Shown piece after piece: positions 2,787-27,893 of a stretch of 44,989 nucleotides of DNA; position 1 is the stretch's first letter; the number at the start of each line of letters is the position of its first letter. The DNA is from a virus: positions 1 to 44,989 of the IMG/VR virus record IMGVR_UViG_3300032180_000132. The stretch is one strand, 5' to 3'. Below the pieces are notes generated by a model that worked only from the letters and a program-made list of their open reading frames with translations, had not been told where the DNA came from and searched no databases. Position numbers and translations under genes: made by a program.

Positions 2787-4490
2787 ATGGCCCTCGTAAT
2801 ACGAACTGAGCGCAAGTCGCAGCCTGCCTACGACGCCGACCCCCGCGCCAAGGCCATCGACGAGCTACAGCGCATTGCTGGTGACCACCGGGATAAGTTC
2901 CTAGGCCAGAACTGGTTCCCCCAAGTGCGAGACTTCTACAACCTCGCCGGGGCCGGTCGCACCACCCCATCATTCCGCCCTAAGATCATGATCCCCCAGC
3001 TACAGGTCATGAACATCTCCGAAGCGACAGAGCTATCTGACTCCTCTCCCAAGGTCTACATATACAATCGTGAGGATGGCGGCGTTGATGAGGATCGCAC
3101 TAGGGCCTTCGACGAGCAGTGGCGACGTGCCTGGGTCAACTACTACCTGCTTCATGGCCTGCTCTGGTCACAGCTATCATCCATTGGATTCATCCAGGTT
3201 GGATATGACCCCACAGCCAATTATGGTGAGGGTGAGGTCTGGGCTCATCATCGTGACCCTGAAACCGCCTATGTAGACCCTGGTGCCAACAATGACGACG
3301 ACTGGCAGTTCCTTGTCCTCGAAGATCGTTACTATCCTGACCAGCAACTCGATTACTGGCCCGAAACTGGACAGGATATGGATGCTGAGCCGTATATGCC
3401 TGGAAGTTACCGTTCCCCCGAAGGCTTTGGCTTCCGGCTCCCAGAAGGTCCTATGTCAATTACTTCAGGACCAGTCGGGGGAGAAGTCCGTCATGGTGAC
3501 GCGCGAAACCGCACCCGGACGATATTCCTCTCTGATCATACGATTGAAGTTACGAAGGATGAAGCCGGGGGAGATTCGGCTGCGACTGTCGAGAGAGGCT
3601 TCGGGGCACCCAGTGGTAGTGTTCGACGAATGCCCCGTTATCCTAACAAACGGATGGTGGTTGAGTCTAACGGCAGGATTCTGGCCGACGGCGATAATCC
3701 GAATCCCAAGAAACGCTTCCCCCTCATACCCATCTATGCCCTTCCACCCCTCACAGACTTCTACCCGCCTCCTCCCGGAAGATTTACTAAGGACCTTCAG
3801 GACCTGGCTGGACGGATGCTGACCCAGACCTACGAGAATGCCGTCAGACTGAATAACGGCGTATGGTTCATTCCTGAGGAGACCGGCATCACGGCTGAGG
3901 CCTTCGGAGGCCTGCCGGGTGAGGTACAGATCACGGCTCCCAACTCACGCCCCCCGGTGCAAATATGGCCTAATCAGATGCCCCAGCACATGGTCCAATT
4001 GCCACAATACCTGCTTGCCCTCCAGAAGGAGCTACAGGGCTTCACTCAGGCCAGGGAAGGTCAGCCAGGTGCTGGCAACATTTCTCCTGAGCTATTCGAG
4101 GCCTCCCTCTACCAGTCCAAGACCCTCACCCGCTGCCGGGAGAGACTGCTAGCTAGGTCTGTCCATCGTCTCGCCGAGCAGATATTCGACCTCATGGTGG
4201 TCAACTATCGCGGCAAGCGGGCCTTCCCGACTGTCAATGAGAAGTTCATGACCATTCCGTGGCTACCAATGGCTGACGACAATAAGCTGGGACTGTATGT
4301 GGACCCAACCTCACTGCTGCCTATCAGCCGCAGCGCCATGAGGCAGATGGCCTTACCACTTCGGGAAGCAGGCGCGCTCGATATTCAAAGTTTTTTGGAG
4401 TACTTAGAGGTACCAAACGCGGCAGAAGTAGCAACCAAGATGAACCGCGAAATGCAGATCGCTGCCTTAGCGAAGTCGAGGAAGCGATGA
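2787..4490 (+). CDS. Phage portal protein
   Basis: The portal is the dodecameric ring at the capsid vertex through which the terminase packages DNA. The 567-residue length, the position two genes after the large terminase and before scaffold and capsid, and the sequence style fit. An N-terminal helical region (about 20-60) is followed by a beta segment with SSIGFIQVGYDP (about 132-143), then a long helical stem region in the C-terminal half with PQHMVQLPQYLLALQKELQ and GAGNISPELFEAS, and a basic C terminus (SRKR). No catalytic motif is expected. An alternative head-tail connector role is less likely given size and order. Confidence 0.8.
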   Translation: MALVIRTERKSQPAYDADPRAKAIDELQRIAGDHRDKFLGQNWFPQVRDFYNLAGAGRTTPSFRPKIMIPQLQVMNISEATELSDSSPKVYIYNREDGGVDEDRTRAFDEQWRRAWVNYYLLHGLLWSQLSSIGFIQVGYDPTANYGEGEVWAHHRDPETAYVDPGANNDDDWQFLVLEDRYYPDQQLDYWPETGQDMDAEPYMPGSYRSPEGFGFRLPEGPMSITSGPVGGEVRHGDARNRTRTIFLSDHTIEVTKDEAGGDSAATVERGFGAPSGSVRRMPRYPNKRMVVESNGRILADGDNPNPKKRFPLIPIYALPPLTDFYPPPPGRFTKDLQDLAGRMLTQTYENAVRLNNGVWFIPEETGITAEAFGGLPGEVQITAPNSRPPVQIWPNQMPQHMVQLPQYLLALQKELQGFTQAREGQPGAGNISPELFEASLYQSKTLTRCRERLLARSVHRLAEQIFDLMVVNYRGKRAFPTVNEKFMTIPWLPMADDNKLGLYVDPTSLLPISRSAMRQMALPLREAGALDIQSFLEYLEVPNAAEVATKMNREMQIAALAKSRKR

Positions 4491-5326: not shown

Positions 5327-5470
5327 ATGGCCGAGCGAAAAGGTTATACAGTCCATGAACCCAAGGAGGCCAAATCAGGCCCCAAGATTGGTCAACTGAA
5401 GCCCTCGCAGCACTTTGGCACCAGACATGCCGGTGGTGGGCGTCACGGGCGCAAATCGTCCCGGCACTAG
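5327..5470 (+). CDS. Small basic protein ending in R-x-S-S-R
   Basis: A 47-residue, Lys/Arg/Gly/His-rich protein. The ATG at 5327 has GGAGGG at 5315-5320, six bases upstream; an in-frame ATG at 5264 coupled to the previous stop would add 21 residues and cannot be excluded. It ends GRKSSRH, matching the C-terminal R-x-S-S-R found in four small proteins at 18.2-20.2 kb. The body is low complexity (HFGTRHAGGGRHGRK). A nucleic-acid-binding or capsid-internal role would fit the charge, but nothing proves it. Confidence 0.6.
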   Translation: MAERKGYTVHEPKEAKSGPKIGQLKPSQHFGTRHAGGGRHGRKSSRH

Positions 5471-7169: not shown

Positions 7170-8291
7170 GTGGAAGATAATCTCAAGTATCAGACTCGCA
7201 TAATCTCGACGCGGGTTGTCATCGACATGGAGTCGATGCAGGTTGTCGAACGGGATAGCTATGAGTACACGGGTCCGGTTGACCTAGCTGCTGGCGTCGT
7301 GGGCATGGGCCTATCGAACCCGCCCACCCAGCTGGTCAATACACTCAACGCCATCACCCAGAAGTACATCATCCCCACCCTGGGTGACGTGACCTTCATT
7401 CCGTCGCCAGCATTCTGGGCCCTCACGCGAGAGGGGAAGAAGTTCGCGGGTGGTGAGATTGTCTACCCCGAGGTCACCCAGGAGGAGATGACTGGTGGTG
7501 CGTACTTCGGCGATCAATTGCTAGACACTGCCGTTGTGGACTCGGTAGTCCCTGCTAATCAACTGTGGCGCTTCTACCGCCAGTCGCTAGCCGTGCCCAT
7601 CACTGACATCATCCTCAATCGCGGTGGGTCTGGTGGATTGGACCTGCTCAAGACCAAGTTCGAGATCGCCAGTGCCAGCTTCCTTCAGAAGCTCTGTAGG
7701 GCACTATGGGGCACTTCGCCGCAGAATACTTCCCTCGACATTGACAGCATTGCTAGCTGGGTGATCTCCACGACTAACACTATCGCAGGTATCAACCGTA
7801 ACCTGGCTGCCAATGCCTACTGGAAGCCTCAAGCCAACGTAGCGCTAGGTGGCACTATCACCCCCACTCAGGTCGAGACGGGCTACCAGACAGGGGTATT
7901 CGGCTATGACGAGCCCGACACCCTGCTGATGACCAATGCCTGCTACGCTAGCTTCAAGAACAACTTCCTCGCTACTGCCTCAAACGCGGCAGGCATCATC
8001 CGGGCCGTGGACAACTTCCAGGACAAGCAGGCTGTCCAGGGTGGCATCCGGTATCACTTCCTGTTCAATAATGCGGTAGTGATACCTGATCGGTTCAACA
8101 CTGCCAATAACGTCCACCTGCTGAACTCGAAGTATCTCTACCCGGTGTTCCATGAGGCTGACTACTTCACCGTGGACCCCTTCATCAAGCCCTCTAACCA
8201 GCGTGTACTGGTTAGCTCGATCTACCTGGCATGGCAATTGATCTGCCGTAGCCCCAGAATGCAAGTTGGCTTCACTGGAGCACCTGCTTAA
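7170..8291 (+). CDS. Major capsid protein
   Basis: A 373-residue protein directly after the scaffold-like gene, of the length of HK97-fold coat proteins. GTG 7170 is preceded by GGAGG at 7160-7164. Sequence features fit a coat protein: an extended N-arm with charged strands, a central region with QTGVFGYDEPDTLLMTNAC, and a C-terminal beta-rich part (YHFLFNNAVVIPDRF, NVHLLNSKYLYPVFHEADYF). No protease or other enzymatic motif occurs. The next gene starts after an AAGGAG box that overlaps this stop. The call depends on order, size and style rather than a diagnostic motif. Confidence 0.8.
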   Translation: MEDNLKYQTRIISTRVVIDMESMQVVERDSYEYTGPVDLAAGVVGMGLSNPPTQLVNTLNAITQKYIIPTLGDVTFIPSPAFWALTREGKKFAGGEIVYPEVTQEEMTGGAYFGDQLLDTAVVDSVVPANQLWRFYRQSLAVPITDIILNRGGSGGLDLLKTKFEIASASFLQKLCRALWGTSPQNTSLDIDSIASWVISTTNTIAGINRNLAANAYWKPQANVALGGTITPTQVETGYQTGVFGYDEPDTLLMTNACYASFKNNFLATASNAAGIIRAVDNFQDKQAVQGGIRYHFLFNNAVVIPDRFNTANNVHLLNSKYLYPVFHEADYFTVDPFIKPSNQRVLVSSIYLAWQLICRSPRMQVGFTGAPA

Positions 8292-14363: not shown

Positions 14364-15041
14364 GTGGATGCCATAAGTAGTATCGGACATATTGCCGGGA
14401 AGCTATCACCCCTATTCAGCCTGGGTGCTGCCGGGGCTGGCACTGTTGGCAATGTCATGGCCAACCGCCTACGCAACCAGCCCCTGGAGCAGCAACTGGC
14501 CCTTCAGCAGAAGTATGCCAACATGACCCCGGACCAATTCGCGCAGGGCATCCAGAGCTTTCTTAGGCCCATGTCGGGAGCGCTGACCAGTAGCGTGGGT
14601 AATGCCGTTCAGGCCAACATGGGCGAGCGCGGTCTCGCTCAGGCCCCAGGGATATTCTCCGAGACTCTGGCTCAGGGCCTAGCACCGTTCCAGACTCAGT
14701 TGCAACAACAGGCTATCAATGCTTACTTCCAGTCTCTGGGGCTACCTGTCGAGGCTGCTGCACGATTCTTACCTTATCCTCAAGGTGGCTCGACTGCTTC
14801 CCTGTGGCAGAACTTCTTCCGCCAGCTTGGTGGCCCGCAGATGCAGGGGCTGACAACTAATCCCCAGTTCCCAAATAATACCAACATCGGCAGGACTCCA
14901 ATGCCAGGGACAGTCCCTGGGGGCAGCATTGACCTAGGGCCAGGGACATTAACGCCCCCCTCTACTGACACCACAGGCAGTGATGCTGGTACGATGCCCT
15001 TTGACTGGATGCAGATGGGCCAACAGGGAGCACTTGCATGA
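14364..15041 (+). CDS. Putative ejection/internal virion protein 2
   Basis: A 225-residue protein starting at GTG 14364 with GGGAGG at 14351-14356; the nearby ATG at 14368 is out of frame. It has a Gly/Ala-rich amphipathic N terminus (SLGAAGAGTVGNVMANRLRN), a long Gln-rich helical centre (QPLEQQLALQQKYANM, APFQTQLQQQAINAYFQSLG) and a Pro/Gly/Thr-rich C terminus. The style matches proteins ejected to form a trans-envelope channel. Overlaps the next gene by 4 bases. Confidence 0.5.
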   Translation: MDAISSIGHIAGKLSPLFSLGAAGAGTVGNVMANRLRNQPLEQQLALQQKYANMTPDQFAQGIQSFLRPMSGALTSSVGNAVQANMGERGLAQAPGIFSETLAQGLAPFQTQLQQQAINAYFQSLGLPVEAAARFLPYPQGGSTASLWQNFFRQLGGPQMQGLTTNPQFPNNTNIGRTPMPGTVPGGSIDLGPGTLTPPSTDTTGSDAGTMPFDWMQMGQQGALA

Positions 15042-16144
15042 GCCTAACCGGACCACTGTTACAAGGTATCGGCGAGGCCGGTGAGGACATCGGCAAGGGT
15101 GCTGAGGCTAATGTCCTCCAACAGCATCAGTTCACCATGGACTACCTTGCCAATCAGGCTCGCAATAGACAGCTGGGTCTTGAGCAGCAGAACCTCGATC
15201 AGCAGAATCAAATAGCTCATTCTCAGTTGCAGCTAGAGGGCAACCGCCAAGACCTGGAGCGCCAACAGTTCGAGCGCCAAGGACTACAGTATGCCGGGGC
15301 GGTGTCAGACGCTGATGGAAACTACTACCGTTCGTACATGGACCCTCTACGTGGCACCTCTATCAGGATGCCCTACCCGCCTGGGGTAGTACCGATAGAT
15401 AGCCCTGCTGGTCAGGCCAATGCTCGCAAGGTCATGATCGCTGCTGGGTTTCCCGAGCAGGCTGTTGACCAAGCCCTATTACACATAAGCTCTACTGGTG
15501 ACCCAACCGAGCGGTTATCAACCTGGCTTGCTTATGCTAAGGCCTCTGGGGCCATCCCTTCTGAGATAGCTGGCAATAAGGCCAAGGAGTTCGCGTGGGG
15601 AATCCAGGGTATCAAGGAAATCCAGGGTGGGTTCAATCCCTTCGACCCCCTTGCAGCAGGTGGTGGCATGACTCCTTCTGAGGCTGCTGAGTACAATCAA
15701 CTCGTCACCCAGCCCCTTAAGGAAGCTCAGGACACTTACAAGAATCAGATGGCTGGATACACTGATAGGATCAACAAGATACCCGTTGCCAATCCATACC
15801 TGGAGAAGCTATATCCGACTGTCCCTGCTCCGATGTATCCAGGGCAGGCTCCTATACCTGGAAGCAATCCCCCTGCATATCGCAATAGCCCCAGCGAGGG
15901 CGAGAGGGCTAAGGCTGAGACTCTTCGCCAGAGTGCTGAGGATGCTCATAAGCAGGCCATGGATCAATACACTCGCTTGGGGCAACAGTTGACGATGACC
16001 TACAATGCTCGTCATGGTCAAGGGCCATTCAGGTCGTCAGGCCCAGCAGTGCAGAAGTTCACTGTGGGAGATGAAGTCTACAATATCCCTACTGATCTTG
16101 TAGACGCGTTCAAGGCGGCTCATCCCAATGCCCAACAACAATAA
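15038..16144 (+). CDS. Putative ejection/internal virion protein 3 (coiled coil)
   Basis: A 368-residue protein. Residues 25-85 form a Gln-rich coiled coil (NRQLGLEQQNLDQQNQIAHS and QLEGNRQDLERQQFERQ). A folded middle portion follows, then a second helical region (SEGERAKAETLRQSAEDAHK) and a C-terminal segment ending in Gln. It lies between the other ejection-type proteins and the transglycosylase and overlaps the latter by 17 bases. No enzymatic motif. Confidence 0.5.
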   Translation: MSLTGPLLQGIGEAGEDIGKGAEANVLQQHQFTMDYLANQARNRQLGLEQQNLDQQNQIAHSQLQLEGNRQDLERQQFERQGLQYAGAVSDADGNYYRSYMDPLRGTSIRMPYPPGVVPIDSPAGQANARKVMIAAGFPEQAVDQALLHISSTGDPTERLSTWLAYAKASGAIPSEIAGNKAKEFAWGIQGIKEIQGGFNPFDPLAAGGGMTPSEAAEYNQLVTQPLKEAQDTYKNQMAGYTDRINKIPVANPYLEKLYPTVPAPMYPGQAPIPGSNPPAYRNSPSEGERAKAETLRQSAEDAHKQAMDQYTRLGQQLTMTYNARHGQGPFRSSGPAVQKFTVGDEVYNIPTDLVDAFKAAHPNAQQQ

Positions 16145-18206
16145 CACTGCTACCAATGCTGCTGACGAGTGGGAACAGTACAAGGTTACCCCAGCAGCGT
16201 CCAGTGTACCATCCAGCTTCTCGACTGGGATATCAGGACCCAACCAGTCTCAGCCCAGTTATCAGGATATGGCCCCTTATTACGCGCTCAAGTACAATCT
16301 CGATCCTGACATCTTCAGTAAGATGATCGAGACTGAATCGAACTGGAATCCTTCTGCTATATCACCTAAGGGTGCTATCGGCCTAGGCCAGTTAATGCCT
16401 GGAACAGCATCCGACATGCAGGTGGACCCCCTTGATCCTGCTGCCAATTTGGAAGGATCAGCCAAGTACCTATCTCAGTTATATCAGAAGTATGGTAGCT
16501 ATGACAAGGCCTTGGCTGCCTATAACGCTGGCCCTGGGCGAGTGGAGGCCGGTGGAGACCTTCCTGCTGAGACCCAAGCCTATGTGTCTAAGATTCTAGG
16601 GCAGCAGCAGGATGAGTGGGCTCAGTATAAGGCACCTAGGGCCGGGACTACTGCCCCAGCCACGACTCCACCTGCTGCTTCTGGCGCTCAGACTGTCCCT
16701 GCTGCTCCTAGTGGCCCTGGAGCCATCAATCGCTTCGAGTCCTCAGCTACCAACACCTTCGGGCTGCCTGCTGATGTCCGAGACTGGCCTGCTGCTTTCC
16801 GCGATATGGTCAGCAAGGGCATACCTATCAGCAACATCCCCAATACTCCAGGAGGGATAGCTGCTAAGGGCATGTTCGGCACTGCCAATGCCCTGGGTAA
16901 CATGATCAAGGGTATTGCTGAGAACTCTCGTGCTGCTAGCCAGGAGGGTCTGGACCTGATGAAGCAGCCTGGATATGGTGCTAAAATTGGTGGTGTGGAG
17001 CGCTTCATACTCGGTGGCATCCCGCAATATGGCCCCTTGCTGGTCAAGTGGGCAGATCAGCTAGAGAAGGGCGATGTAGCCGGGTCAATGGGGACTATAG
17101 CAGGCATGGGGCTACAGGGATTCATGTCCATGCCCGATACTGTAGCTGCCAAGCTCCAGGGGGCTTCGCAATATCTGATGGCCAAGTCTCGCGTGCAAGA
17201 AACCATCCTCGCATCAGAGACCCAGCATATGCTCAACTCGACTGAAGCCTCGGCGCGTGCTCAGGGTCATTCTCTATTCCCTTCTACTGACCAGAACCTC
17301 TCCGGGGCCACAGTAGCTGGTATTGCCCGGAAGGCCATCGACGACAACATCCGTGGGACTCCAGCTACCCCTCGCCCTCTTGGGTCAATGCTAGAGCCTG
17401 AGGAGTTCAAGAAGCTCGGGTCCATCGAGACTCCTGAGAGCAACCTGATGGAGATTTACCGTCGCATGACCTCTGGCGATGACATCCCAGCTAATGAGGT
17501 ACAGGGTTACCGGAGCGAGATTGGCCGCATTATGGCTCGTGGAGGGCTAGAGGGAGACGTGTATAGCACTCTTAAGCAGACCTATAATGGCCTGACTGGG
17601 GAACTCGACAAGCTCTATGCCAGTGAGGGTAAGTCTGCCCAATGGGAAGATGCCAATGTCAACTGGAAGAGATTGGCTACTACTTGGTGGGACAAGGATA
17701 GCCCCCTAGCGCAATCTATGAACGCCCGTGATGCCACAGCCATCCTCAAGCCACTGCTAGATGACCAGTCTGAGCGTGCTACTCAATATTTGAAGGACTA
17801 TCGCAACCATGGTGCTGATCCTGGTGCTGTCCAGGCCGCCCAGACCTTCTACAAGGGCATGAACCGGATGCAGTTTCGGGGCCTATGGAGAGCAGCAGGG
17901 CCGCTCATGGTCGCAGTACCACTCGGATATGCTGCTGGAGTACCTTACTCGGCTACCATGGGGGCTGTGATCGTCCCACTCATAATGGCCAAGATGGGCC
18001 TCGGCTGGGGTGAGACCCGCCCGTCGATGATCAAGATACTGTCCAATGAGCCGCCGACGGTACCAGGACAGCCTTGGATTCCACGTCAATCACCATTCAC
18101 ACCTTATCGGCCAACTAACATATTTCCTAGCTCAGTTCAAGCTCCTCCTGGGGCTCCTTCAGTTATACCCAAGGAGGCGCAAGACATCTTGGAAGGGTTA
18201 CAGTAA
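16128..18206 (+). CDS. Virion lytic transglycosylase fused to large internal protein
   Basis: A 692-residue protein that likely cleaves peptidoglycan locally during DNA entry. Residues 45-158 are a soluble lytic transglycosylase (Slt/LysM-type family 23) domain: IETESNWNP with catalytic Glu70, GAIGLGQLMPGTA (83-95), and AYNAGPGRV (131-139). A short motif DEWEQYK (13-19) recurs as DEWAQYK (162-168), bracketing the catalytic domain. The remaining 500 residues are helical with a Gly/Ala/Met hydrophobic segment near 605-650 (MVAVPLGYAAGVPYSATMGA). The fusion resembles T7 gp16-type internal proteins in concept, without sequence proof. Confidence 0.8.
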   Translation: MPNNNNTATNAADEWEQYKVTPAASSVPSSFSTGISGPNQSQPSYQDMAPYYALKYNLDPDIFSKMIETESNWNPSAISPKGAIGLGQLMPGTASDMQVDPLDPAANLEGSAKYLSQLYQKYGSYDKALAAYNAGPGRVEAGGDLPAETQAYVSKILGQQQDEWAQYKAPRAGTTAPATTPPAASGAQTVPAAPSGPGAINRFESSATNTFGLPADVRDWPAAFRDMVSKGIPISNIPNTPGGIAAKGMFGTANALGNMIKGIAENSRAASQEGLDLMKQPGYGAKIGGVERFILGGIPQYGPLLVKWADQLEKGDVAGSMGTIAGMGLQGFMSMPDTVAAKLQGASQYLMAKSRVQETILASETQHMLNSTEASARAQGHSLFPSTDQNLSGATVAGIARKAIDDNIRGTPATPRPLGSMLEPEEFKKLGSIETPESNLMEIYRRMTSGDDIPANEVQGYRSEIGRIMARGGLEGDVYSTLKQTYNGLTGELDKLYASEGKSAQWEDANVNWKRLATTWWDKDSPLAQSMNARDATAILKPLLDDQSERATQYLKDYRNHGADPGAVQAAQTFYKGMNRMQFRGLWRAAGPLMVAVPLGYAAGVPYSATMGAVIVPLIMAKMGLGWGETRPSMIKILSNEPPTVPGQPWIPRQSPFTPYRPTNIFPSSVQAPPGAPSVIPKEAQDILEGLQ

Positions 18207-18219
18207 GGGAGGACTCGAT

Positions 18220-18471
18220 ATGGCACTCGGCATCAGCGTCAGGGCTCCACGCGCCAAACCAGCAGGGCAGACCTCGAAGCCCAAGGTCGCCACCTCGCGT
18301 ATCAAGGGGCTTCGTGTCCCTGGAGTGGCTAATCCCAATCAGCAAGATAGCCCCCTCGGCCCTCAACTAGGTGGCATGGGCCTCACCATGGGCATGAAGC
18401 GAGGGATTCGCAACCAGGCTCTCAAGGGGGCAGGGGCCAGGGTCAGCAATCGTCAGTCTAGCAGGGACTGA
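18220..18471 (+). CDS. Small basic protein ending in R-x-S-S-R
   Basis: An 83-residue protein. ATG 18220 follows AAGGGAGG (18205-18212). Strongly basic (RAPRAKPAG, SRIKGLRVPG, MKRGIRNQALKGAGAR) with no hydrophobic core, so probably unstructured or nucleic-acid binding. It ends SNRQSSRD, the first of four adjacent proteins (18.2-20.2 kb) sharing the R-x-S-S-R tail; a fifth is at 5.3-5.5 kb. Family not recognised. Confidence 0.65.
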   Translation: MALGISVRAPRAKPAGQTSKPKVATSRIKGLRVPGVANPNQQDSPLGPQLGGMGLTMGMKRGIRNQALKGAGARVSNRQSSRD

Positions 18472-18496
18472 TAGTGTCCCTGTTGCTAGCTATAAG
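18468..18496 (+). promoter_or_regulatory. Possible promoter for the basic/secreted cassette
   Basis: CTGATA at 18468-18473 (4 of 6 to the -35 consensus) and TATAAG at 18491-18496 (5 of 6 to the -10) are separated by 17 bases. They lie in a 51-base gap, one of few gaps in this operon, just before the next gene (ATG 18523). Expression of the cassette apart from the structural genes would explain it. Evidence is sequence match only. Confidence 0.3.
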
Positions 18497-18522
18497 TATT
18501 CTGCTGTAGAAGGACATTGACA

Positions 18523-18711
18523 ATGGCCAAGAAGCATGGTAGGTCCCTAGTCAGTCAGAAGATATCGGTGCTACGGCATGAGGGTACGCCACAACGACAG
18601 GCTGTGGCTGAAGCGATTAGCATGGGCCGTGCTGGTCGGCTGCGTCAGGGCGGAGTATACGTTAGAGCTAAGGGTAAGAAGTCTAATCGGGCATCTTCTA
18701 GGAGGTCTTAG
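18523..18711 (+). CDS. Small basic protein (HEGxPQxQA type) ending in R-x-S-S-R
   Basis: A 62-residue protein from ATG 18523 (AAGGA at 18510-18514); a TTG two codons earlier is less likely. The core KISVLRHEGTPQRQAVAEAI followed by SMGRAGRLRQGGVYVR resembles, from memory, a widespread small phage protein with 'EG.P.kQA.AIA....R' (DUF6496-like). It ends SNRASSRRS, sharing the R-x-S-S-R tail. Strongly basic. Its stop overlaps the next start by one base. Confidence 0.65.
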   Translation: MAKKHGRSLVSQKISVLRHEGTPQRQAVAEAISMGRAGRLRQGGVYVRAKGKKSNRASSRRS

Positions 18712-19556
18712 TGCTTAGACCATTCACACTCCTCATACTTATAGCAATCTTGCTGCTAGCATCCATGACTGCCTTGGCCCAATCCACTACCGTCACTGGC
18801 ACTGTCGCAGATCAGGTAAGTGGTCAACCCTATGCTGGGGGCACCGGTCAAGCCATATTCGTCCCTGGGGCCGGTGGGCAGCTATCCCTAGAAGGTGGCA
18901 CATCGACCTTCCAGCAGATTGTCCCAATAACCAGCATGACGGCAGCCGGGACATTCAGCGTGGTAGTGACCGACAATACCCAGATTCAGCCCTCTGGCAG
19001 CCAGTGGAAGTTTACCTTCTGCGATTCTACCAGGGCCTTCTGCTTCACGACAGCAGCCATCACGATCAGCGGCAGTAGCCAGTCCATCACCTCCAATATC
19101 AACTCGGTGGTGCTACCCCTGCCCCGCAGGCCGCAGACAGTCCAGTACGTAACCGCAGACGTATCCAACTCGACTGTCACCCCGGCAGCCATTACCGGAC
19201 TATCGTTTCCGGTAGTTGCCAATCAGAACTACACTCTAGAATGCAATATTATCTATCAGGCTGCTTCAACTGGGGGACTGGTCGTATCGTTCACTGGCCC
19301 AGCCTCGCCCACACAGGTATCGTACTCGCTCAACGAGGGCCTGTCAGCTACAACCTCGGGGTTCTCTGCCACGACTGGGACAACCTTCGCTACTACCCTA
19401 GGCGGGGTAGTGACCACTGCTGCAACCAACTTCCCAGCCTATCTGGAAATGGCCGTGGAGAATGGTGCCACTGCTGGGACTGTCCAGGTTATGTTCCAAT
19501 CGGCTGCTGCTGTTGCTACGACTGTGAAGAGGGGCTCGTACTGTACACTTCAATAG
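18711..19556 (+). CDS. Secreted beta-rich protein with shared DNTQI/QW[KR]F domain
   Basis: A 281-residue protein from GTG 18711 overlapping the previous stop. It begins with a Sec-type signal peptide (FTLLILIAILLLASMTALAQ, cut after ALA about residue 22). Residues 25-140 form a domain shared with the proteins at 21444 and 27894: TVTGTVADQ, TDNTQI, QWKFTFCDSTRAFCF, then SGSSQSITS. Two conserved Cys suggest a periplasmic disulfide. The C-terminal 130 residues are Thr/Ser/Gly beta sequence ending RGSYCTLQ, as in fibre tips. A receptor-binding or surface-displayed protein is likely; the signal peptide is unexpected for a virion part. Confidence 0.65.
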   Translation: MLRPFTLLILIAILLLASMTALAQSTTVTGTVADQVSGQPYAGGTGQAIFVPGAGGQLSLEGGTSTFQQIVPITSMTAAGTFSVVVTDNTQIQPSGSQWKFTFCDSTRAFCFTTAAITISGSSQSITSNINSVVLPLPRRPQTVQYVTADVSNSTVTPAAITGLSFPVVANQNYTLECNIIYQAASTGGLVVSFTGPASPTQVSYSLNEGLSATTSGFSATTGTTFATTLGGVVTTAATNFPAYLEMAVENGATAGTVQVMFQSAAAVATTVKRGSYCTLQ

Positions 19557-19566
19557 GAGGGGTTAT

Positions 19567-19764
19567 ATGGCTAAGATAGCTGAGGAACGTGCTGGCTGTA
19601 GCGAGAATATGTCCCTAGACCCTCGCAACACAGCCAAGTGTGGTCACGATGGTGGTCTGCGGGCCGATGACCTTCACCTGGAGACCTATTGTCTGCATCC
19701 TGAGCCCAAGGGTAACGCTCATCCGCCGTCCTGGGCAGGAGGTCACAGGGGCCGTCATGGCTGA
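19567..19764 (+). CDS. Small Cys/His-containing protein
   Basis: A 65-residue protein from ATG 19567 with AGGAGGGG at 19555-19562. It has CSEN near residue 11, KCGHDGG near 24 and YCLHPEP near 42, so three Cys with adjacent His that could bind a metal. The C terminus is Gly/His/Arg-rich (GGHRGRHG). It overlaps the next gene by 8 bases. Family unknown. Confidence 0.55.
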   Translation: MAKIAEERAGCSENMSLDPRNTAKCGHDGGLRADDLHLETYCLHPEPKGNAHPPSWAGGHRGRHG

Positions 19765-19966
19765 GCATGAGGTCAAACTGGGCAAAAAGGGCTCGTTTAA
19801 GGTTCATGAGGGTGCGCTACATCGTGCCCTGGGCGTTGCTGAGGGCAAGAAGATTCCAGCGTCTAAGATGAAGGGGCATCATAGCGGTCACCTGGGCAGG
19901 ATGATAGCCAGCGCTCGGGGATTGAAGGCCATGCACCATGGCTCTCGCAAGTCTAGTCGGAGGTAG
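19757..19966 (+). CDS. Small basic protein (LHRALGVxxGKKIP type) ending in R-x-S-S-R
   Basis: A 69-residue protein from ATG 19757. The segment LHRALGVAEGKKIPASKM followed by GHLGRMIASARGLKAM resembles, from memory, a common small phage protein pattern (LHxxLGIxxGxKIP...M...A). It ends HHGSRKSSRR, the R-x-S-S-R tail. Very basic. The cellular role of the whole group is unknown. Confidence 0.65.
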   Translation: MAEHEVKLGKKGSFKVHEGALHRALGVAEGKKIPASKMKGHHSGHLGRMIASARGLKAMHHGSRKSSRR

Positions 19967-19971
19967 TCCTG

Positions 19972-20166
19972 ATGGCTGCTAATGAGGTCCGCTACGAGAA
20001 GGCCGATGACGGTAGCTTCATCTCCCACACCCATCACGAAGATGGCAAGGATGGCAAGTACATCAAGCCTAGTGTCAATACTCACAGCAGTTTACAGGAC
20101 GCTGCGGCTCACCTGACCAGGGCATTCAAGAGGAAGCTATCTAGGCGCTCGTCGAGGAGGGGCTGA
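19972..20166 (+). CDS. Small basic protein ending in R-x-S-S-R
   Basis: A 64-residue protein with GGAGG before ATG 19972. The N-terminal part is mixed-charge and beta-like (NEVRYEKADDGSFISHTHHE), with His/Asp clusters (HTHHEDGKDGKY) that may bind metal; the C-terminal part is a basic helix ending KRKLSRRSSRRG. Apart from the tail it does not resemble its neighbours, so the motif is shared between otherwise unrelated chains. Its stop overlaps the next ATG. Confidence 0.65.
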   Translation: MAANEVRYEKADDGSFISHTHHEDGKDGKYIKPSVNTHSSLQDAAAHLTRAFKRKLSRRSSRRG

Positions 20167-20615
20167 TGAACCTGATAAAACGATATCTGCTATTAGCCAT
20201 ACTTATCACATCCCTGGGGATTGCTGCCCCGGCGTCAGTCTACAACACCACCACCCCTATCAATCTCGCTCCAGGTCAGACGGGCATCGTCTGGAATGCC
20301 GAGACCCCCACTCCAGGTAATGGCACCACTGCTGCCAGCCAGCAGGTAGCCCTAGCCCCAGGTCAGGGCACTACCCCATTTAGTGTCGATGGCCACTTCT
20401 CGGGGGCCCCTGGCGCGTTTGAGGTTGATGTGCAGATAGCCTCGAATGATGCCGATACAGACTATCAGACCTGCTCAAATTGCAACATAACCACTGTGGA
20501 CGCTACCAATCAGACCTTCCACCTGGATGCAGGGCTGGCTGTGGCGCATTACGTGAGGTTGCTCATGAGGTCGCGCACTAACTCAGTCACAATAACCGCT
20601 AGGATCAGCCGATGA
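20166..20615 (+). CDS. Secreted small beta protein
   Basis: A 149-residue protein with a Sec signal peptide (KRYLLLAILITSLGIAAPA, cut near residue 23). The mature part is a beta sandwich type (GQTGIVWNAETPTPG, HFSGAPGAFEVDVQIAS) with a vicinal CSNC pair near residues 99-102, and a C-terminal strand pattern VRLLMRSRTNSVTITARISR. ATG 20166 overlaps the previous stop. Probably a fibre-associated or surface protein; no enzyme motif. Confidence 0.6.
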   Translation: MNLIKRYLLLAILITSLGIAAPASVYNTTTPINLAPGQTGIVWNAETPTPGNGTTAASQQVALAPGQGTTPFSVDGHFSGAPGAFEVDVQIASNDADTDYQTCSNCNITTVDATNQTFHLDAGLAVAHYVRLLMRSRTNSVTITARISR

Positions 20616-21118
20616 AGAGATATCTGTTACCCATAATCGTTCTCATGCTCGCTATTGTCGGGGTTACATGGCCCCAGAGCCCTGGAGGGTCGTATAGCTC
20701 CCCAGGAGTCAATAATCTCCAGACAGTCACCAATTACAATGGTCAGGCTACAGCAGGTCAGGGCGTCGCACCAATCTTGGCCTATAATGCCACCACCCCC
20801 ACTACCCCAGTAGGCTCCACTTCCATTCTAACTGCTGCTCCTGCTGGAGCTTACCGGATCAGCGTGTATTATGTGGTGACCACGGCTGGCACGGTAGGTA
20901 CGGCAATCACCATGAATATAACCTACACCGATGCTCAGCAAGCACAGACAATCTCCACCATAACCTCTTCTGGTCTCGTCCAGGGGCAGTTTGTAACCGG
21001 CACCCTGTTCATCCAACAGCAGGCTAGTGGCAATATCAACTACACGATCACCGAAACTGGCAGCTTCACCGTCCATCCAGTCCTCGCGCTCAAGATTGCG
21101 CTGGAGAGGATAAATTGA
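20612..21118 (+). CDS. Secreted stand-alone copy of a fibre C-terminal domain
   Basis: A 168-residue protein overlapping the previous gene (ATGA). An N-terminal hydrophobic segment (RYLLPIIVLMLAIVGVTW) looks like a signal peptide or anchor. Residues 60-168 (GAYRISVYYVVTTAG, NITYTDAQQAQ, ALKIALERIN) align with the C-terminal domain of the beta-helix protein at 27894-29915 (GMYRVCSYEIVTQQA, VNVLWTDLDTN, ALHMRLEFLG). So a terminal module exists both as a domain and as a separate exported protein. Likely trimeric, fibre-tip-like beta fold by style. Confidence 0.6.
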   Translation: MKRYLLPIIVLMLAIVGVTWPQSPGGSYSSPGVNNLQTVTNYNGQATAGQGVAPILAYNATTPTTPVGSTSILTAAPAGAYRISVYYVVTTAGTVGTAITMNITYTDAQQAQTISTITSSGLVQGQFVTGTLFIQQQASGNINYTITETGSFTVHPVLALKIALERIN

Positions 21119-21444
21119 GGCGGCTTCTACTACTGCTATTGCTCATTCTGGGCCAACAGGGCTCTACTGGGACTAACTATGTCCCAATAATGACTGCCAC
21201 AACCGGCAGCATTGGTGGTAGTGCCCTCCTGGCTGGGGCATGTTCTAGCGGGACTGTGGCCGTAACGGGGGCGCAACCTGGGCAACCTGTTGTAGTCTCA
21301 GCGGCAGATGGTACGAACATCCCAGCGCTTGGGGTCAGCTTATCCGGCACCGTGACATCAGCCGGGACGGTTACAGTCAGTGTTTGTGCCCTCATAGGGC
21401 TCACGCCTACAGCCAAGACTTACTCGGTGAGGGTGATCCCTTGA
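21115..21444 (+). CDS. Secreted small Gly/Thr/Val-rich protein
   Basis: A 109-residue protein from TTG 21115, whose codon overlaps the previous TGA; GGAGAGGA lies just upstream. The N terminus RRLLLLLLLILGQQG is an extreme poly-Leu signal-peptide-like segment. The mature part is Thr/Gly/Val beta sequence with two Cys (AGACSSGTV, SVCALIG). No family recognised. Part of the continuous chain of exported-looking genes. Confidence 0.55.
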   Translation: MRRLLLLLLLILGQQGSTGTNYVPIMTATTGSIGGSALLAGACSSGTVAVTGAQPGQPVVVSAADGTNIPALGVSLSGTVTSAGTVTVSVCALIGLTPTAKTYSVRVIP

Positions 21445-24068
21445 TGCGGAGATTACTGCTAGTATTGGCCGGATTGGGATTCATACTTGTAGCTAGTCCA
21501 GTCTCGGCTCAAGTGGGCTTCACGACCGTCACAGCCCAGGTGATCGACCCCAATGGGAACAATTACGCCAACTGCTCTGTCAATACAACCTATGTCCCGG
21601 CCCCCACTGCTACAACTGTTCTGCCCACTCTAGCTGGGGTGCTGGTCAGGGCCCCTGGAGCTACCTACTGCGACGGGAATGGCAACCTGATTGTCACTGT
21701 GGCCGATAACACCCAGATTATGGATGGCCATGTCACTGGTGGGGCTACTTCCCAGTGGCGATTCACCATCTGCGCCCTGTCAGGGGCACCATGTTTTGCC
21801 TACTCCACAGCCGTTAGCGGGTCAAGCCAGAACCTGAGTGCTGCCATCCAGGCCGTAGCACCACTTTTGATAGCTATACCTAACAGTCTACTGGGCTCAC
21901 TGGGGGCTAATGGCCGCTGCCCTACGTCCAACGGTGCCCTGGTGGTCTGGGCTACTTGTGGTAGTGGCGGCGGGACTCCTGGAGGCTCTAATGGGCAGCC
22001 TCAGTATAACAATAACAACGTGTTTGCAGGCTTCACATTCGGCGGGGATTGTACATTCCTGGTGCCCAATCTGACCTGCACCAAGACTGCTGGCACACCA
22101 TTTGCCTCCAGTGCCACCACTGACACGACCAATGCTAGTAACATATCAAGTGGTACCCTGGCTGCTGCTCGCCTGCCAACCAGTGTGCCTACCTCGACAG
22201 TCAACGACACCAATGTCCTGGCGACGATAGTGAACAATGTCCTGACCATGGGGTGGACCAATCAGTTATCAGTCCCCAGGGGGGGTACTGGTCAGGGGTC
22301 GTTCACATCCCATGGGCCCATAGTAGGCGAGGCTGGAAGCCCATTTATATCAATCACCCCTGGGGCTAGCGGGACCTGTTTTATGTCCAATGGGGCTGCT
22401 GCTGACCCGTCATACCAGTCCTGCCCTAGCAGCACGGGATTTGCCAATCCCATGACCACCCTGGGTGACATAATCTTTGAGACTACTCCTCCTGGCCCTG
22501 CTCGATTGCCTGGGCCTACAGCACAGAACATCCCCTATGTGCTGACCAATACCCCCACTGCTGGGGTAGCTCAGGCACCTGCATGGTCTCTGCCTGGAGT
22601 CCCGTTCGATGCTCAACCGTGTACAGGTAATGCCTTCACCATTGGCAATAACGACCGGGAGAACCTAGTCACGATCAATGATGCCTCACCTTGCGCTATT
22701 ACACTCCCTCAGGCTGGGGCAGGGAACTTCACTAACAATTTCAACTTTGCTATCTGCAACATCGGTGCTGGCCTTGTGACCATGACGCCTACGACCTCCA
22801 CATTCAACGGTCTAGCGTCACAGATTCTGCCTAATCATTGGTGCTCTTATCCCTACAGTGACAATGCTAATTATCGCGCTCTGACCACCCCAGACTTTGC
22901 TGCCTATCCGTCATGCCCAACTGGGGCCTTGGGATTCAACACTGCTACTGGGGTTATCCCTTGCAATACCTTCGCTACCCTGGCACCGACCCCTATCCGT
23001 GCTGGGGACATCATCTACTGGAATGGTTCTGCCTGGATCGACCTGGCTGGCAATAATGGCAGTACAGGCTTCCTCCAGGAAACCGGTGCTGGAGTCCCAA
23101 GCTGGGCTGCCAGCGCCAACACCACTGCGTGGAGCGCCATAATCAATCCCACTACTAATCTCTCACTCACCATGGCAGCCTTCACCACTCTGTTCACCTT
23201 CAATGCTGCTACGGGGGCTGGAGTAGACCTATTCAAGTGGACCGATACCACCAATAACACTGGCACTGGCATCCTGGGGCATTTCACCACAGCCAGCGGG
23301 TCAGTACTCATCCCCTGGCAGGCAGACTTCAATGGTGTGGGATGGCGGGTAAATGCAGCAGGGAATCTATTCCCAGTGTCGACTGGCTCCCTAGCTATCC
23401 CTGGGACTGCTCATGGGGTAGTAGTCAGTGAGGGCGCGGCCACACCAGTAGCTGTCACGAATCCTGGGACCGCTAAGCAGATATTCACGTCAGGTGGTGC
23501 TGGGGCTGACCCGGTATACATAGACTTCCCTGATGTCAAGATCATTCCTCTGGCTAATTGTAATGCTGGGACTGCTGGTGCGGGGCCTGACATCCCATCT
23601 GCCAATGGATTCGCAGCAGCCTGTGTGGGCACTACAACAGTCAAGGGGGCATTACAAGGGACACCTAATGCTGGTACCAGTGTATTCTTCACGATTGATG
23701 GATATGCTCTGACCAAGGACTGGGACACTGCCAACCAGCCATTTGTCAGCGTAGAGTATGGCTCAGGCACGAATGCGTCCGGGACGGTTATCTGGACTGT
23801 CTCTGACGGGTGCACTAAGCTAGATGGCTCGGTGACTGACGACCCCGCGCTGAACGCCGAGTCAGCCATGGCCACTCAGACCATGACCACTGCCTCACGC
23901 TCATGGGGTCAGAACATGCAATTGGCACAGTTAACCAGTGGTAATAACTGTATCGTGGGCAGCCCTGTGAGCCTCAAGTTTACCTTGTCTGGTACAGCCT
24001 CAGCATTCATCAATGCTTATCGGGTAGTCATTACTCAGCCCCGACTGTTGACGGTGCAGGCGAACTGA
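21444..24068 (+). CDS. Large secreted tail-fibre-like protein
   Basis: An 874-residue protein from ATG 21444, which shares one base with the previous stop. Signal peptide RRLLLVLAGLGFILVASPVS ending VSA|Q. Residues 25-140 carry the shared domain (TTVTAQV, ADNTQI, QWRFTICALSGAPCF, SGSSQNLS). After a Gly/Pro linker near 195 come fibre-like repeats: NASNISSGTLAAARLP, then VPRGGTGQGSFTSHGPIVG, a pattern common in phage tail fibres. Long Asn/Thr/Gly beta regions lead to a C-terminal domain (VSVEYGSGTNAS, INAYRVVITQP). It is probably a receptor-binding fibre or a host-derived secreted adhesin. Confidence 0.65.
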   Translation: MRRLLLVLAGLGFILVASPVSAQVGFTTVTAQVIDPNGNNYANCSVNTTYVPAPTATTVLPTLAGVLVRAPGATYCDGNGNLIVTVADNTQIMDGHVTGGATSQWRFTICALSGAPCFAYSTAVSGSSQNLSAAIQAVAPLLIAIPNSLLGSLGANGRCPTSNGALVVWATCGSGGGTPGGSNGQPQYNNNNVFAGFTFGGDCTFLVPNLTCTKTAGTPFASSATTDTTNASNISSGTLAAARLPTSVPTSTVNDTNVLATIVNNVLTMGWTNQLSVPRGGTGQGSFTSHGPIVGEAGSPFISITPGASGTCFMSNGAAADPSYQSCPSSTGFANPMTTLGDIIFETTPPGPARLPGPTAQNIPYVLTNTPTAGVAQAPAWSLPGVPFDAQPCTGNAFTIGNNDRENLVTINDASPCAITLPQAGAGNFTNNFNFAICNIGAGLVTMTPTTSTFNGLASQILPNHWCSYPYSDNANYRALTTPDFAAYPSCPTGALGFNTATGVIPCNTFATLAPTPIRAGDIIYWNGSAWIDLAGNNGSTGFLQETGAGVPSWAASANTTAWSAIINPTTNLSLTMAAFTTLFTFNAATGAGVDLFKWTDTTNNTGTGILGHFTTASGSVLIPWQADFNGVGWRVNAAGNLFPVSTGSLAIPGTAHGVVVSEGAATPVAVTNPGTAKQIFTSGGAGADPVYIDFPDVKIIPLANCNAGTAGAGPDIPSANGFAAACVGTTTVKGALQGTPNAGTSVFFTIDGYALTKDWDTANQPFVSVEYGSGTNASGTVIWTVSDGCTKLDGSVTDDPALNAESAMATQTMTTASRSWGQNMQLAQLTSGNNCIVGSPVSLKFTLSGTASAFINAYRVVITQPRLLTVQAN

Positions 24069-25645
24069 TGCGACGGATAGCCGTGATATGGGCTCTGGTT
24101 GCCATTGAGGCAGTGTTCCTGTGCAATCTGGGTCAGAGGACTGTTAGGGCAGCCGGTCCAACCACGCCCACGTTCATAGACGCCAGCGCTCATATGAGCA
24201 CTAGCGGGGTGACGAACTCAGTCAGTGATTACGTCATATACTTGCTCAACACGAATATTGCTGGTAATTCTATTGTCGTAGGCTGCTCATGGAGCGCCAG
24301 TGGCAACCCTACAATGACAGTAACTGATGACGCCGGTGACTCGTTTACCACTGGGCCGACTAATAACGATGCTAATCAGATAGTCCAGATGTGGTGGGCG
24401 GTTAACACTGTCGGTGGTGCAACCAAGGTAACGGTCCATTCAAGTGTGACTGGTGTACTGCACAAAGGTTGTACATACGCGCAATATGCTGGCCTGGGCA
24501 ATCTGACCAATGATGGTACCTGCAACGCCAATGTCGCTAACGGGACCTTGGCTTGTGGTAGCTTTACAACCACCCACAATGGAGACCTGATCATCCATTT
24601 TTGGCAGTGCGATAGTCCGACTGGAGCCGGGAGCAATGCGTCAGTAGGAAGCCCAGGTGGTAGCTTTAGTAATGTCTCAATAAACTCCATGGAGTCATAC
24701 GGGTTCGACGCAGAGGTACAAGTCACTGCTGGTGCAGTCAATCCAACTGAAACGGTAACCAATTGCAGTGCAGGGCTTAGCGTTGGGGTGGCTTTGCAGG
24801 CGTCGGCTGGAGGCTCTGGTGCTACGATCAGTGGCCTCTATCTCCAGTGTATTGCTGTAGAAAATTTCCCAAATGCAATCTCCTCTACACAAGCGTTCCA
24901 GATGCCATGCGGAGACAGTTCTGGTAACCTGATCACTTGGACTGGCAATTTCAACTGTACGTCGGCCTGTACCGGGGCGGGCACAGACATAACCGCCGTA
25001 AGTGATGGGACAAATAGCTATCAGTTCGTTACTGGCACTGGTATAGGGGGTAGTACGGCGGGCTGTGCTGCGATCATGACGGCTAGCAATACCGGCCTCT
25101 GTCTGGGTTATGCTTGTAATGCCACGATTGCAAGCTCGACGCGGCTAACATTCACGTGGACCGGCAGTGATGCCAACATGCTCGTCGCTATGGCCGTTTG
25201 GAAGGGAGCAAAAACTGGCAGCAGTACTGCCTGCTTTGATAAAGCTGCATTGACTACGAGTACATGTACAGCCTCTCCAGCGTGTGTACCGCCTTCTGGA
25301 GCATCGTTACCATTGAGCGGCCCAACGCTTACTCCCTCAGTAGCGAATGAGGGTGCATATGGTTACCAGCAGGAAGATGCTCAAGCCGTCACTGGAACAG
25401 GCTCTAATGTTGGAACCCCGCACTTCGAGGATATAGACTTTAAGTTCTATGGTAGCAATGAACTGGAGCAGGATGGAGGACTGTTTCACATCTACCTGAC
25501 CACTACTGCTGCTGTCACGCCTACGTTCTCATACTCGAATTACGATGCTGGTCAGACGGTCCAGGGATATGGCTCGATCATGGCTCTATTCCTGCCAGCG
25601 GTTGGGGCCCCTGCTGTCCATAACGCTATCCCGCAGGTGCTGTGA
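24068..25645 (+). CDS. Secreted beta-sandwich protein
   Basis: A 525-residue protein with a signal peptide (AVIWALVAIEAVFLCNLGQ, likely cut after VRA near residue 28). The mature protein shows two related beta regions: SIVVGCSWSASGNPTMTVTDD with WWAVNTVGGATKVTVHS, and later RLTFTWTGSDANMLVAMAVW. Many Cys pairs suggest oxidised export. Only two CTAG tetranucleotides occur in 1.58 kb, fewer than in most late genes, so recent acquisition is possible. No fibre repeat is seen; a surface adhesin-like role is guessed. Overlaps both neighbours by one to four bases. Confidence 0.6.
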   Translation: MRRIAVIWALVAIEAVFLCNLGQRTVRAAGPTTPTFIDASAHMSTSGVTNSVSDYVIYLLNTNIAGNSIVVGCSWSASGNPTMTVTDDAGDSFTTGPTNNDANQIVQMWWAVNTVGGATKVTVHSSVTGVLHKGCTYAQYAGLGNLTNDGTCNANVANGTLACGSFTTTHNGDLIIHFWQCDSPTGAGSNASVGSPGGSFSNVSINSMESYGFDAEVQVTAGAVNPTETVTNCSAGLSVGVALQASAGGSGATISGLYLQCIAVENFPNAISSTQAFQMPCGDSSGNLITWTGNFNCTSACTGAGTDITAVSDGTNSYQFVTGTGIGGSTAGCAAIMTASNTGLCLGYACNATIASSTRLTFTWTGSDANMLVAMAVWKGAKTGSSTACFDKAALTTSTCTASPACVPPSGASLPLSGPTLTPSVANEGAYGYQQEDAQAVTGTGSNVGTPHFEDIDFKFYGSNELEQDGGLFHIYLTTTAAVTPTFSYSNYDAGQTVQGYGSIMALFLPAVGAPAVHNAIPQVL

Positions 25646-27891
25646 TGAGATGCTTGATGCGATACTTCTCACTGTTGTTGGCAATGCTCATCTGGTGTGG
25701 GACAGCCCTCGCCCAGACAACCGATGGCCCAGCTACTCTCCCTACTGGATTCAGCACCACCAACGGGGTGTTCAGCACGGCCTTCCCTAACACCACCGGC
25801 TACACGATAGCAACTGTTCCAGGCACTTATCCCGACTATCAGACAGCACTCAACTCGGTAGCCTGCAACACGATCATCAAGCTAGCTGCTGGATCGACCT
25901 ATACAGGTTCCTTCAATCTTGTGAGGACCTGCCCAGCGGGACAGTGGCGCATCACCATGGTCAGTACCTGCAATAACGATGGTACCTGTCCGGTGGCATC
26001 AGGACTCCCCAGCCAGGGTACACGGGTCACGACAGGTGAAGCAGGCTCGATGGCTAAACTTGTAGCTTGTTCGTCGAACTGTAATAACGTGCCTACCCTG
26101 AACGTGGCTGGCAACTATGGCACATCTGGTCTAGCAGCATCAGGCTACTGGTTCGGGCCAGGGATTGAGATTCTGCCTCCAGCAGATGCTTCATGTAGTG
26201 GAAGCGGGGGGAGTGTAACCTGTACATCATTCCAACAGGGTGGGCTTGTTCTGGACAATCACGCCTCGGCTCTCTCGATCAGCAATATCGTTTATGACCG
26301 TGTTCTCGGGATGTGCCCGTCGAACGCCGAATGCGCCAGGATCATCGCTACTTCCGGGGACCATGAAGCTATTGTTGATTCTGTTTTGATCGGTGCCCAC
26401 GGCGGTCCTGATTCTCAACAAGCGCAAGCCTGGTGGGAAGGTGAAGGTGTTGGCCCCTACAAGGTCGTTAACAACGAACTCGGCGGCAGCGGCATGGGCA
26501 GCTTGGCTGGTGGGGCGGGCTGTCCTGCCAACTCCGGCTTGCCGCCGCATGATCTCGAATACGCTGGAAACTATGTTCACTACGATCTGGGAACCGGCTC
26601 CATCCTTTCGTTCTGGGCTGCCGCCAATGTGGGCAATACGCGTGCCATCCTGGAAATGAAAGAAGGCCTCCGCTGGCTGGTTCAAGGAAATTACATGGAT
26701 GGCGGGGCCGTAGCGCAGAATGCGCCCAATGGCACTGCCTTTGCTTACGGAATCCTGGAACGCGCAAGCGACAACCCGGGCAATGGCGGATGCACCACCA
26801 ACTATACGCAGGACGTGACCACTCGATTCAACAAGATTCTTCACCCTGCCATCGCCATCGATTTGCAGGGCGGCAACGATCAGGCCGCGGCACCTTTCTT
26901 CAAGAACTTCAGCGTGCACGACAACATGGCCGACGACATCAACCGTGTGAACGGCACGAGCGACAGCACGGCGGGCACGGCCATGACCATCGATACGTTC
27001 AGTTCCCCGCCCAGCCAGAATATCCTCATCAATCACAACACCTTCATCTCGTCTACCACTGGGCACTCTTGGATGGATATTCAGTGCCCTGCTGCCCCGT
27101 TTCTTCCGACCTTTGTTATCACTAACAATATTGCCCTAGAGAACTCCTTCGGATTCTCGGCCTTCATTTTCGCCGGGGGCCAGTTCACGACTACTTATAC
27201 AGGGGGCAACGGCTGGGAACCTAACTGCTTCAACACCCCATTCCAGGATGTGGTTAGCTCGAACCTGTCTATAGGTACAGTCCAAGCAACATGGAAGCCT
27301 GGAAATACGACTGGTATAGCGATTGCTAGCGTAGGCTTCACGAATTACAATGGCGGCAACGGTGGCAATTACCAACTCCTAGGCACTAGTCCCTATATCA
27401 CCGCAGCGAGTGATGGTGGCCCACTTGGAGTGTCGAACTGGTCCTGCCTCAACTCCATGACTGCGGCAGCCTTCAATGGGACCTACACCGAGCTAATAGG
27501 AGCCTGTGCCAGTGGAGGGGGGAGTGTTGCTCCAGTAGTGGTGATTACCCCAGTGACCATAACCCTGGGCAATTCTCAGCAGGGTAATGCTGGTGGTATG
27601 GCAACAGCCACTGTGACCAATAGTGGCACTGCTACACTTGTACTCAACACCCCATACTTTAACATATCAGGGTCTAATCCCCTAGACTTCTCCAATCTGG
27701 GTACAGGTACCTGTGCTAATGGGGCCTCTGTGGGGATAGGGCTAAGCTGTACTGTGAACCTACAATTCACCCCCGCACTGGCTAGTTCCGAATCCGCAAC
27801 CTTGAACATTCTCGGTAATGCCAACGGGTCGGCCTCGATGACAGGGACTGGTACAGCTAGAGGGATAGCTAGGGGGATGTCAGTAAGGTAG
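25645..27891 (+). CDS. Secreted right-handed beta-helix protein with anchor-D-like C-terminus
   Basis: A 748-residue protein from ATG 25645 (GTG 25642 is possible and overlaps the prior stop). Signal peptide MRYFSLLLAMLIWCGTALAQ, cut ALA|Q. Residues 35-600 read as a right-handed parallel beta-helix (pectate-lyase-like): YPDYQTALNSVACNTIIKLA, ALSISNIVYDRVLGM, GLRWLVQGNYMDGG, SVHDNMADD, ILINHNTFISS. Residues about 630-735 resemble an anchor-D/HYDIN-like Ig domain (SQQGNAGGMATATVTNSGTA, SCTVNLQFTP). Either a depolymerase-type tailspike or a host-derived secreted enzyme; no catalytic residues can be assigned. The middle third has different base use (see findings). Confidence 0.65.
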   Translation: MRCLMRYFSLLLAMLIWCGTALAQTTDGPATLPTGFSTTNGVFSTAFPNTTGYTIATVPGTYPDYQTALNSVACNTIIKLAAGSTYTGSFNLVRTCPAGQWRITMVSTCNNDGTCPVASGLPSQGTRVTTGEAGSMAKLVACSSNCNNVPTLNVAGNYGTSGLAASGYWFGPGIEILPPADASCSGSGGSVTCTSFQQGGLVLDNHASALSISNIVYDRVLGMCPSNAECARIIATSGDHEAIVDSVLIGAHGGPDSQQAQAWWEGEGVGPYKVVNNELGGSGMGSLAGGAGCPANSGLPPHDLEYAGNYVHYDLGTGSILSFWAAANVGNTRAILEMKEGLRWLVQGNYMDGGAVAQNAPNGTAFAYGILERASDNPGNGGCTTNYTQDVTTRFNKILHPAIAIDLQGGNDQAAAPFFKNFSVHDNMADDINRVNGTSDSTAGTAMTIDTFSSPPSQNILINHNTFISSTTGHSWMDIQCPAAPFLPTFVITNNIALENSFGFSAFIFAGGQFTTTYTGGNGWEPNCFNTPFQDVVSSNLSIGTVQATWKPGNTTGIAIASVGFTNYNGGNGGNYQLLGTSPYITAASDGGPLGVSNWSCLNSMTAAAFNGTYTELIGACASGGGSVAPVVVITPVTITLGNSQQGNAGGMATATVTNSGTATLVLNTPYFNISGSNPLDFSNLGTGTCANGASVGIGLSCTVNLQFTPALASSESATLNILGNANGSASMTGTGTARGIARGMSVR

Positions 27892-27893
27892 GG

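Follow-up and report, generated by a model that had tools for sequence, protein, structure and literature searches.

Serine-spaced basic C-terminal tails recur on unrelated small proteins of particle-building genes in a family of tailed phages

The window and its five C-terminal ends

The stretch of DNA analysed here (the window) is a virus record of 44,989 bases with the gene plan of a tailed phage, having DNA polymerase and helicase genes on the opposite strand. The landmark genes, the five small proteins under study (p1 to p5) and their tails are as follows.

48-1898: terminase
2787..4490 (+): portal protein, landmark (PHROGs portal profile, 2.6e-09); its own end is AKSRKR
5327..5470 (+): p1, gene call, 47 aa, end HGRKSSRH; its homologue in G007 has the tail HSRKSSRK
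5450..5467 (+): p1 tail, RKSSRH
7170..8291 (+): major capsid protein, landmark (PHROGs major head protein, 1.1e-17)
16128..18206 (+): transglycosylase-bearing virion protein (Pfam SLT, 4.9e-23; PHROGs tail and internal virion profiles), adjoining p2
18220..18471 (+): p2, gene call, 83 aa, end SNRQSSRD
18451..18468 (+): p2 tail, RQSSRD
18523..18711 (+): p3, gene call, 62 aa, two-helix body (model) and basic tail, end SNRASSRRS; 14-row alignment
18688..18708 (+): p3 tail, RASSRRS; an internal AGGAGG precedes the start at 18711
19757..19966 (+): p4, 69 aa, GALHRALGVAEGKKIP-type body plus the extension SRKSSRR; homologues L251-L260 are without the extension
19946..19963 (+): p4 tail, RKSSRR
19972..20166 (+): p5, gene call, 64 aa, end LSRRSSRRG
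20143..20163 (+): p5 tail, RRSSRRG; an internal AGGAGG precedes the start at 20166

The original prediction that the proteins ending at 5470, 18471, 18711, 19966 and 20166 share an R-x-S-S-R end was confirmed in the sequence for all five, and so was its claim that the bodies differ while the ends are alike, no similarity of the bodies to each other being detected. All five ORFs were accepted as genes by the dicodon gene caller; for p4 the caller starts at 19667, and homologues place the likely start at 19757. The genes of p2 to p5 are placed directly past that of the transglycosylase-bearing protein, and p1 falls in the interval from the portal gene to the capsid gene. Searches of PHROGs and Pfam with the five proteins gave nothing below E 0.09. 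Also, neither p2 nor p5 as query found a homologue in viral_contigs, and queries with p3, p4, p5 and the portal gave nothing useful in the named phage collection.

The tails are written in different codons, with Arg as CGC, CGT, CGG or AGG and the Ser-Ser pair as TCG TCC, TCT AGC, TCT TCT, TCT AGT or TCG TCG. Pairwise comparison of the five tails shows identical codons at a rate compatible with chance (9 of 40, expected 7.1, P 0.25), and therefore copying of the tail as a recent DNA repeat was rejected.

The bodies of p3 and p4 are predicted to be small and partly helical, and model confidence drops at the tail (47 in the last block of p4, 58 and 53 in the last blocks of p3), the p4 model being weak overall with a mean of 68.6. 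From these two models only, we infer that the tails may be flexible. Searching the PDB for folds similar to the p3 model gave a best E value of 4.5.

Relatives and tail patterns

The motif was picked after viewing the window, and therefore the relatives without the window are the real test. Relatives (kin) were collected from IMG/VR, first with a terminase alignment and next with one of portals; as a single-sequence query in viral_contigs the portal gave nothing useful, likewise the transglycosylase-bearing protein, and the terminase as sole query gave one distant locus only. The capsid protein of the window was found in all 36 kin records searched. Genes were called with our own dicodon model in the window and 80 kin contigs (81 in all), giving 3187 proteins in 1495 clusters, or 1469 clusters without the window. 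Clustering used blastp at E 1e-3 over half of the shorter protein, under which very short proteins may sit in separate clusters. Redundancy of the kin was removed in part only; L121, L127 and others were kept although near-identical to retained contigs. Identical ORFs are present in contigs of different records (L156/L162, L160/L169 and L120/L121/L127) and would inflate counts per contig, so for the most part protein clusters were counted. Neither the family set nor the control set includes L007 and L011, two contigs with portal similarity to the family. For the tail patterns, residues were recoded to classes (B for Arg or Lys) and the count of each five-residue pattern among the nine C-terminal residues was compared with shuffles of the last 15.

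In the window, [RK]xSSR lies in the last nine residues of 5 of the 65 called genes, where 0.116 is expected on shuffling the tails. The remaining five of the ten matches listed in ORFs of at least 30 aa start 33-70 residues before the C-terminus, and the gene caller did not accept the ORFs that contain them. Unsupervised ranking of patterns in the kin without the window put basic-x-Ser-basic-basic (B.SBB) at the top, with 21 seen and 4.4 expected; its Poisson P of 1e-8 is for a single pattern, and 8943 patterns were seen, 1043 of them at least four times. B..SB, BSSBB, BB.SB and BBSSB are also near the top, together with one unrelated acidic pattern, J..OG. For [RK]xSSR, with one random member per cluster, 8 were seen in the kin without the window against 0.62 expected, it being noted that the random draw makes pattern counts vary by a few between runs; averaging up to three members in each of the 1469 clusters gave 6.7 against 0.69.

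Replacing the serine left the counts flat over all kin clusters (B.ABB 6 vs 4.9 expected, B.TBB 2 vs 1.9, B.LBB 4 vs 2.9), and with an acid in its place only 1 was seen against 5.3 expected. The glycine form is raised in the same clusters (B.GBB 19 vs 5.6). None of the patterns occurs in the 314 clusters of proteins longer than 150 aa, taking one random member each, and some portals have them. The kin tails are mostly looser (KRTSRR, RKSARR, RRMSKRA), and against the five RxSSR ends of the window genome each other contig above 38 kb has none or one.

Composition bias of basic proteins had been raised as the main alternative when the ends were first noticed. The shuffles keep composition and still yield too few, and together with the residue controls they led us to reject chance or composition as the cause, the motif itself having first been chosen in the window. 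A control set of 76 contigs with only distant terminase similarity (879 clusters) gave 1 B.SBB against 1.4 expected, 1 [RK].SSR against 0.14 and 7 of the glycine form against 2.1. That random basic small phage proteins carry such ends at the same rate was thus false in this 76-contig set.

Conservation of the tails among orthologues

Between p1 and its G007 homologue, six of the last eight residues are shared, five of them with changed codons (body 20/35); in their common RKSSR, four of the five codons are different, including a switch between two serine codon families. Similarly, the tails of L158 and L160 share all eight residues, three with changed codons (body 19/38). Because the residues of these orthologous tails stay alike while their codons change, selection of the tail at the protein level is supported in some orthologue groups.

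Other groups are less uniform. In the 14-row alignment of the p3 group, most members have a basic tail and only some have SSR or SSK. The body type of p3 may be common to phrog_2423, a group of small phage proteins of unknown function of which the tail is not a defining feature; p3 itself scores only E 0.098 against it, and its kin G023 and G037, from the same alignment, match at 1.7e-19 and 2.5e-17. In ten other viral contigs, p4 homologues (closest 73% identical) end immediately ahead of SRKSSRR, and the two of them that have longer basic ends differ in sequence there. The tail was therefore either gained in the window lineage or lost elsewhere. In four viral contigs (L251, L252, L254 and L256) the p4-type domain adjoins a small protein of 'MPFxSKAQ' type, which suggests that the two genes are a travelling pair.

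Strict conservation of R-x-S-S-R was rejected, as p3 orthologues vary and p4 orthologues are without the tail. Homologues lacking the tail, which the original prediction had named as telling against it, were thus found for p4 and part of the p3 group and not for p1. What stands of the proposed common R-x-S-S-R address is the occurrence above chance, the selection at the protein level, the unrelated bodies and the assembly cluster; the peptide is not fixed, as is seen in p3, p4 and the kin.

Position in the genome

The landmark was the capsid gene; 49 of the 80 kin contigs had it among their called genes, and only these contigs were counted, with the window excluded. The module was defined as the block on the capsid strand that starts 4.5 kb upstream of this gene and reaches 15 kb downstream of it, and the clusters were those of proteins of up to 100 aa. 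Serine tails were found in 19 of 137 clusters in the module against 11 of 778 outside, and basic tails in 43 of 137 against 36 of 778. When only basic-tailed clusters are compared, the serine pattern shows no clear excess inside the module (17 of 43 vs 7 of 36, P 0.085), and therefore the link with position belongs to basic tails in general. With the window included, 5 of 516 small genes on the opposite strand are tailed and 42 of 773 on the capsid strand. On a terminase-based measure, basic tails downstream of the terminase in the family stand at 39/163 vs 12/355; the controls show a weaker lean of 13/138 vs 15/354, and the position effect is therefore partly general.

Relative to the capsid gene, many of the tails fall roughly 2 kb upstream, roughly 2 kb downstream or roughly 11-13 kb downstream, and in different phages these three places are filled by unrelated bodies, for example a 64-residue ferritin-like protein ending KRTSRR. 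There are also non-homologous neighbours that share the tail type (14787-14972 and 14973-15167 in G029; 33322-33453 and 33456-33608 in G026). The protein ending KRTSRR (L223 14973-15167, of G029) has a ferritin-like/rubrerythrin profile (Pfam PF02915, E 6.5e-07), and a 64-residue counterpart at L145 17437-17631 ends KRGSRR.

Possible roles of the tails

The relatives show that these tails are a recurring, selected feature of small proteins among particle-building genes. Short flexible Arg/Lys chains with small spacers bind polyanions. Because of this, and because of the place of the tails among head and ejection genes, recruitment to DNA or to an acidic partner is the simplest reading, and we infer both the binding of the tails to polyanions and the presence of the proteins in the particle. 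We give about an even chance to the tail being a flexible charged C-terminus by which late small proteins would bind DNA or an acidic assembly partner. Arg and Lys spaced by serine (by glycine in kin) would form a short, flexible, positive tail, recurring in this phage family on unrelated small proteins of the head and ejection genes. Acting by charge, it may anchor the small protein to the DNA of the phage or to an acidic assembly protein (scaffold or coat, for example), and the anchoring could bring late proteins to the assembling particle or keep them in it.

A charge hold of this kind exists in the P22 scaffold, where the basic C-terminal residues R293 and K296 hold an internal protein on the acidic coat (PMC9965877). 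The likeness is in the basic C-terminal residues and the charge-based hold; the difference is that P22 uses a folded helix-loop-helix of a large scaffold, whereas here there are ends of 6-10 residues on proteins of 30-100 aa. In protamines and baculovirus P6.9, Arg clusters with serine or glycine spacers condense DNA. The spacing of Arg clusters by serine or glycine is alike, but most of the chain is basic there and only the tail is basic in the window proteins, the bodies of p4 and p5 being rich in acidic and neutral residues.

Charge alone does not explain the preference for Ser-Arg order over shuffled order or the five RxSSR ends of one genome. The definite order exceeds the shuffled order, and a specific partner may thus be involved. 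A single partner from the phage (scaffold, coat, portal or packaging factor) might recognise B-B-x-S-B-B and collect the tagged proteins. This would fit a residue order that matters beyond composition, tails conserved at the protein level, the same gene positions with unrelated bodies, one genome with five near-identical ends, and a tail on the p4 body in the window only; the broad variation inside orthologue groups and the enrichment of glycine forms as well count against it. On these sequence comparisons we regard such an address as rather unlikely; a strict one-partner form is possible and not favoured. Similarly doubtful is the idea that B-B-x-S-B-B is a modular C-terminal sorting peptide which an entire family of uncultured phages would use to load unrelated small proteins into the particle, cargo genes being recruited by gaining the tail.

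Such a tag would be the C-terminal counterpart of the capsid targeting sequence (CTS) of T4 internal proteins, which encapsidates virtually any attached protein (PMC7697877) and shows that ten residues are enough to address many proteins. Both cases have a peptide of about ten residues common to different proteins, but the T4 tag is N-terminal and is removed by the head protease, whereas the window tails are looser and basic with serine, and all five are C-terminal, on bodies that differ. In the portions of the open-access literature available, we recognised no description of such tails.

In tailed phage genomes the structural genes are interspersed with genes for many very small basic proteins of unknown function. 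A selected terminal pattern that runs through a family and is tied to the morphogenesis cluster predicts which small proteins are associated with the particle, and it supplies a testable tag. Should this tag prove sufficient to package a protein, phages would have a further, new means of loading protein cargo.

Flexible basic tails would suit RNA equally well, and the proteins could have a late role in the host cell, e.g. on nucleic acid or ribosomes, with tails unrelated to the particle. Against this are the concentration in the morphogenesis cluster (19/137 vs 11/778) and the few cases on the opposite strand (5/516 vs 42/773), and we consider a host-cell role unlikely.

Another explanation takes the tails as a by-product of ribosome-binding sites, together with the basic bias of small phage proteins. 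In the packed kin genomes the AGGAGG of the next gene often sits in the last codons and reads Arg-Arg. Such a site is within the tail in 39 of 92 distinct tails, including those of p3, p4 (as CGGAGG) and p5. However, p1 and p2 have no coupled gene, composition-keeping shuffles give too few such ends, and the B.SBB excess persists where the next gene is at least 15 bases away (13 vs 2.4 expected), it being noted that in this non-coupled subset the controls rise too (B.ABB 6 vs 2.3, B.LBB 4 vs 1.6). With the non-coupled excess equally large and only 39 of 92 tails having the site, a coded ribosome-binding site was rejected as the general cause, and the by-product explanation is very unlikely. 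Neutral read-through extensions of small domains, functionless as tails, would agree with p4 orthologues stopping before the tail, but orthologous tails keep their residues through synonymous change and a definite pattern recurs, so this explanation is hardly credible.

Other observations

The C-termini of the family portals are basic and short, some with Ser or Gly (AKSRKR, RSGRK, KGSRK, KGGKK, SRKGK), as seen in the window (4490), G035, G039, L101 and G028, and may be an instance of this feature in a head protein of known role. No host was identified because the major capsid protein and portal alignments had no relative among the bacterial and archaeal genomes of genome_contigs. Several late proteins of the window, at 18711-29915 (+) and 32482-33108 (-), have N-termini resembling Sec signal peptides, with starts at 18711, 20166, 20612, 24068 and 27894 and, on the opposite strand, at 32482. 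A crude rule assigns Sec-like starts to 58 of 131 kin proteins of at least 100 aa at 10-25 kb past the capsid gene, against 41 of 1233 elsewhere. Exported spike-like proteins would be unusual for a phage. The tailed small genes are interleaved with these Sec-like late genes.
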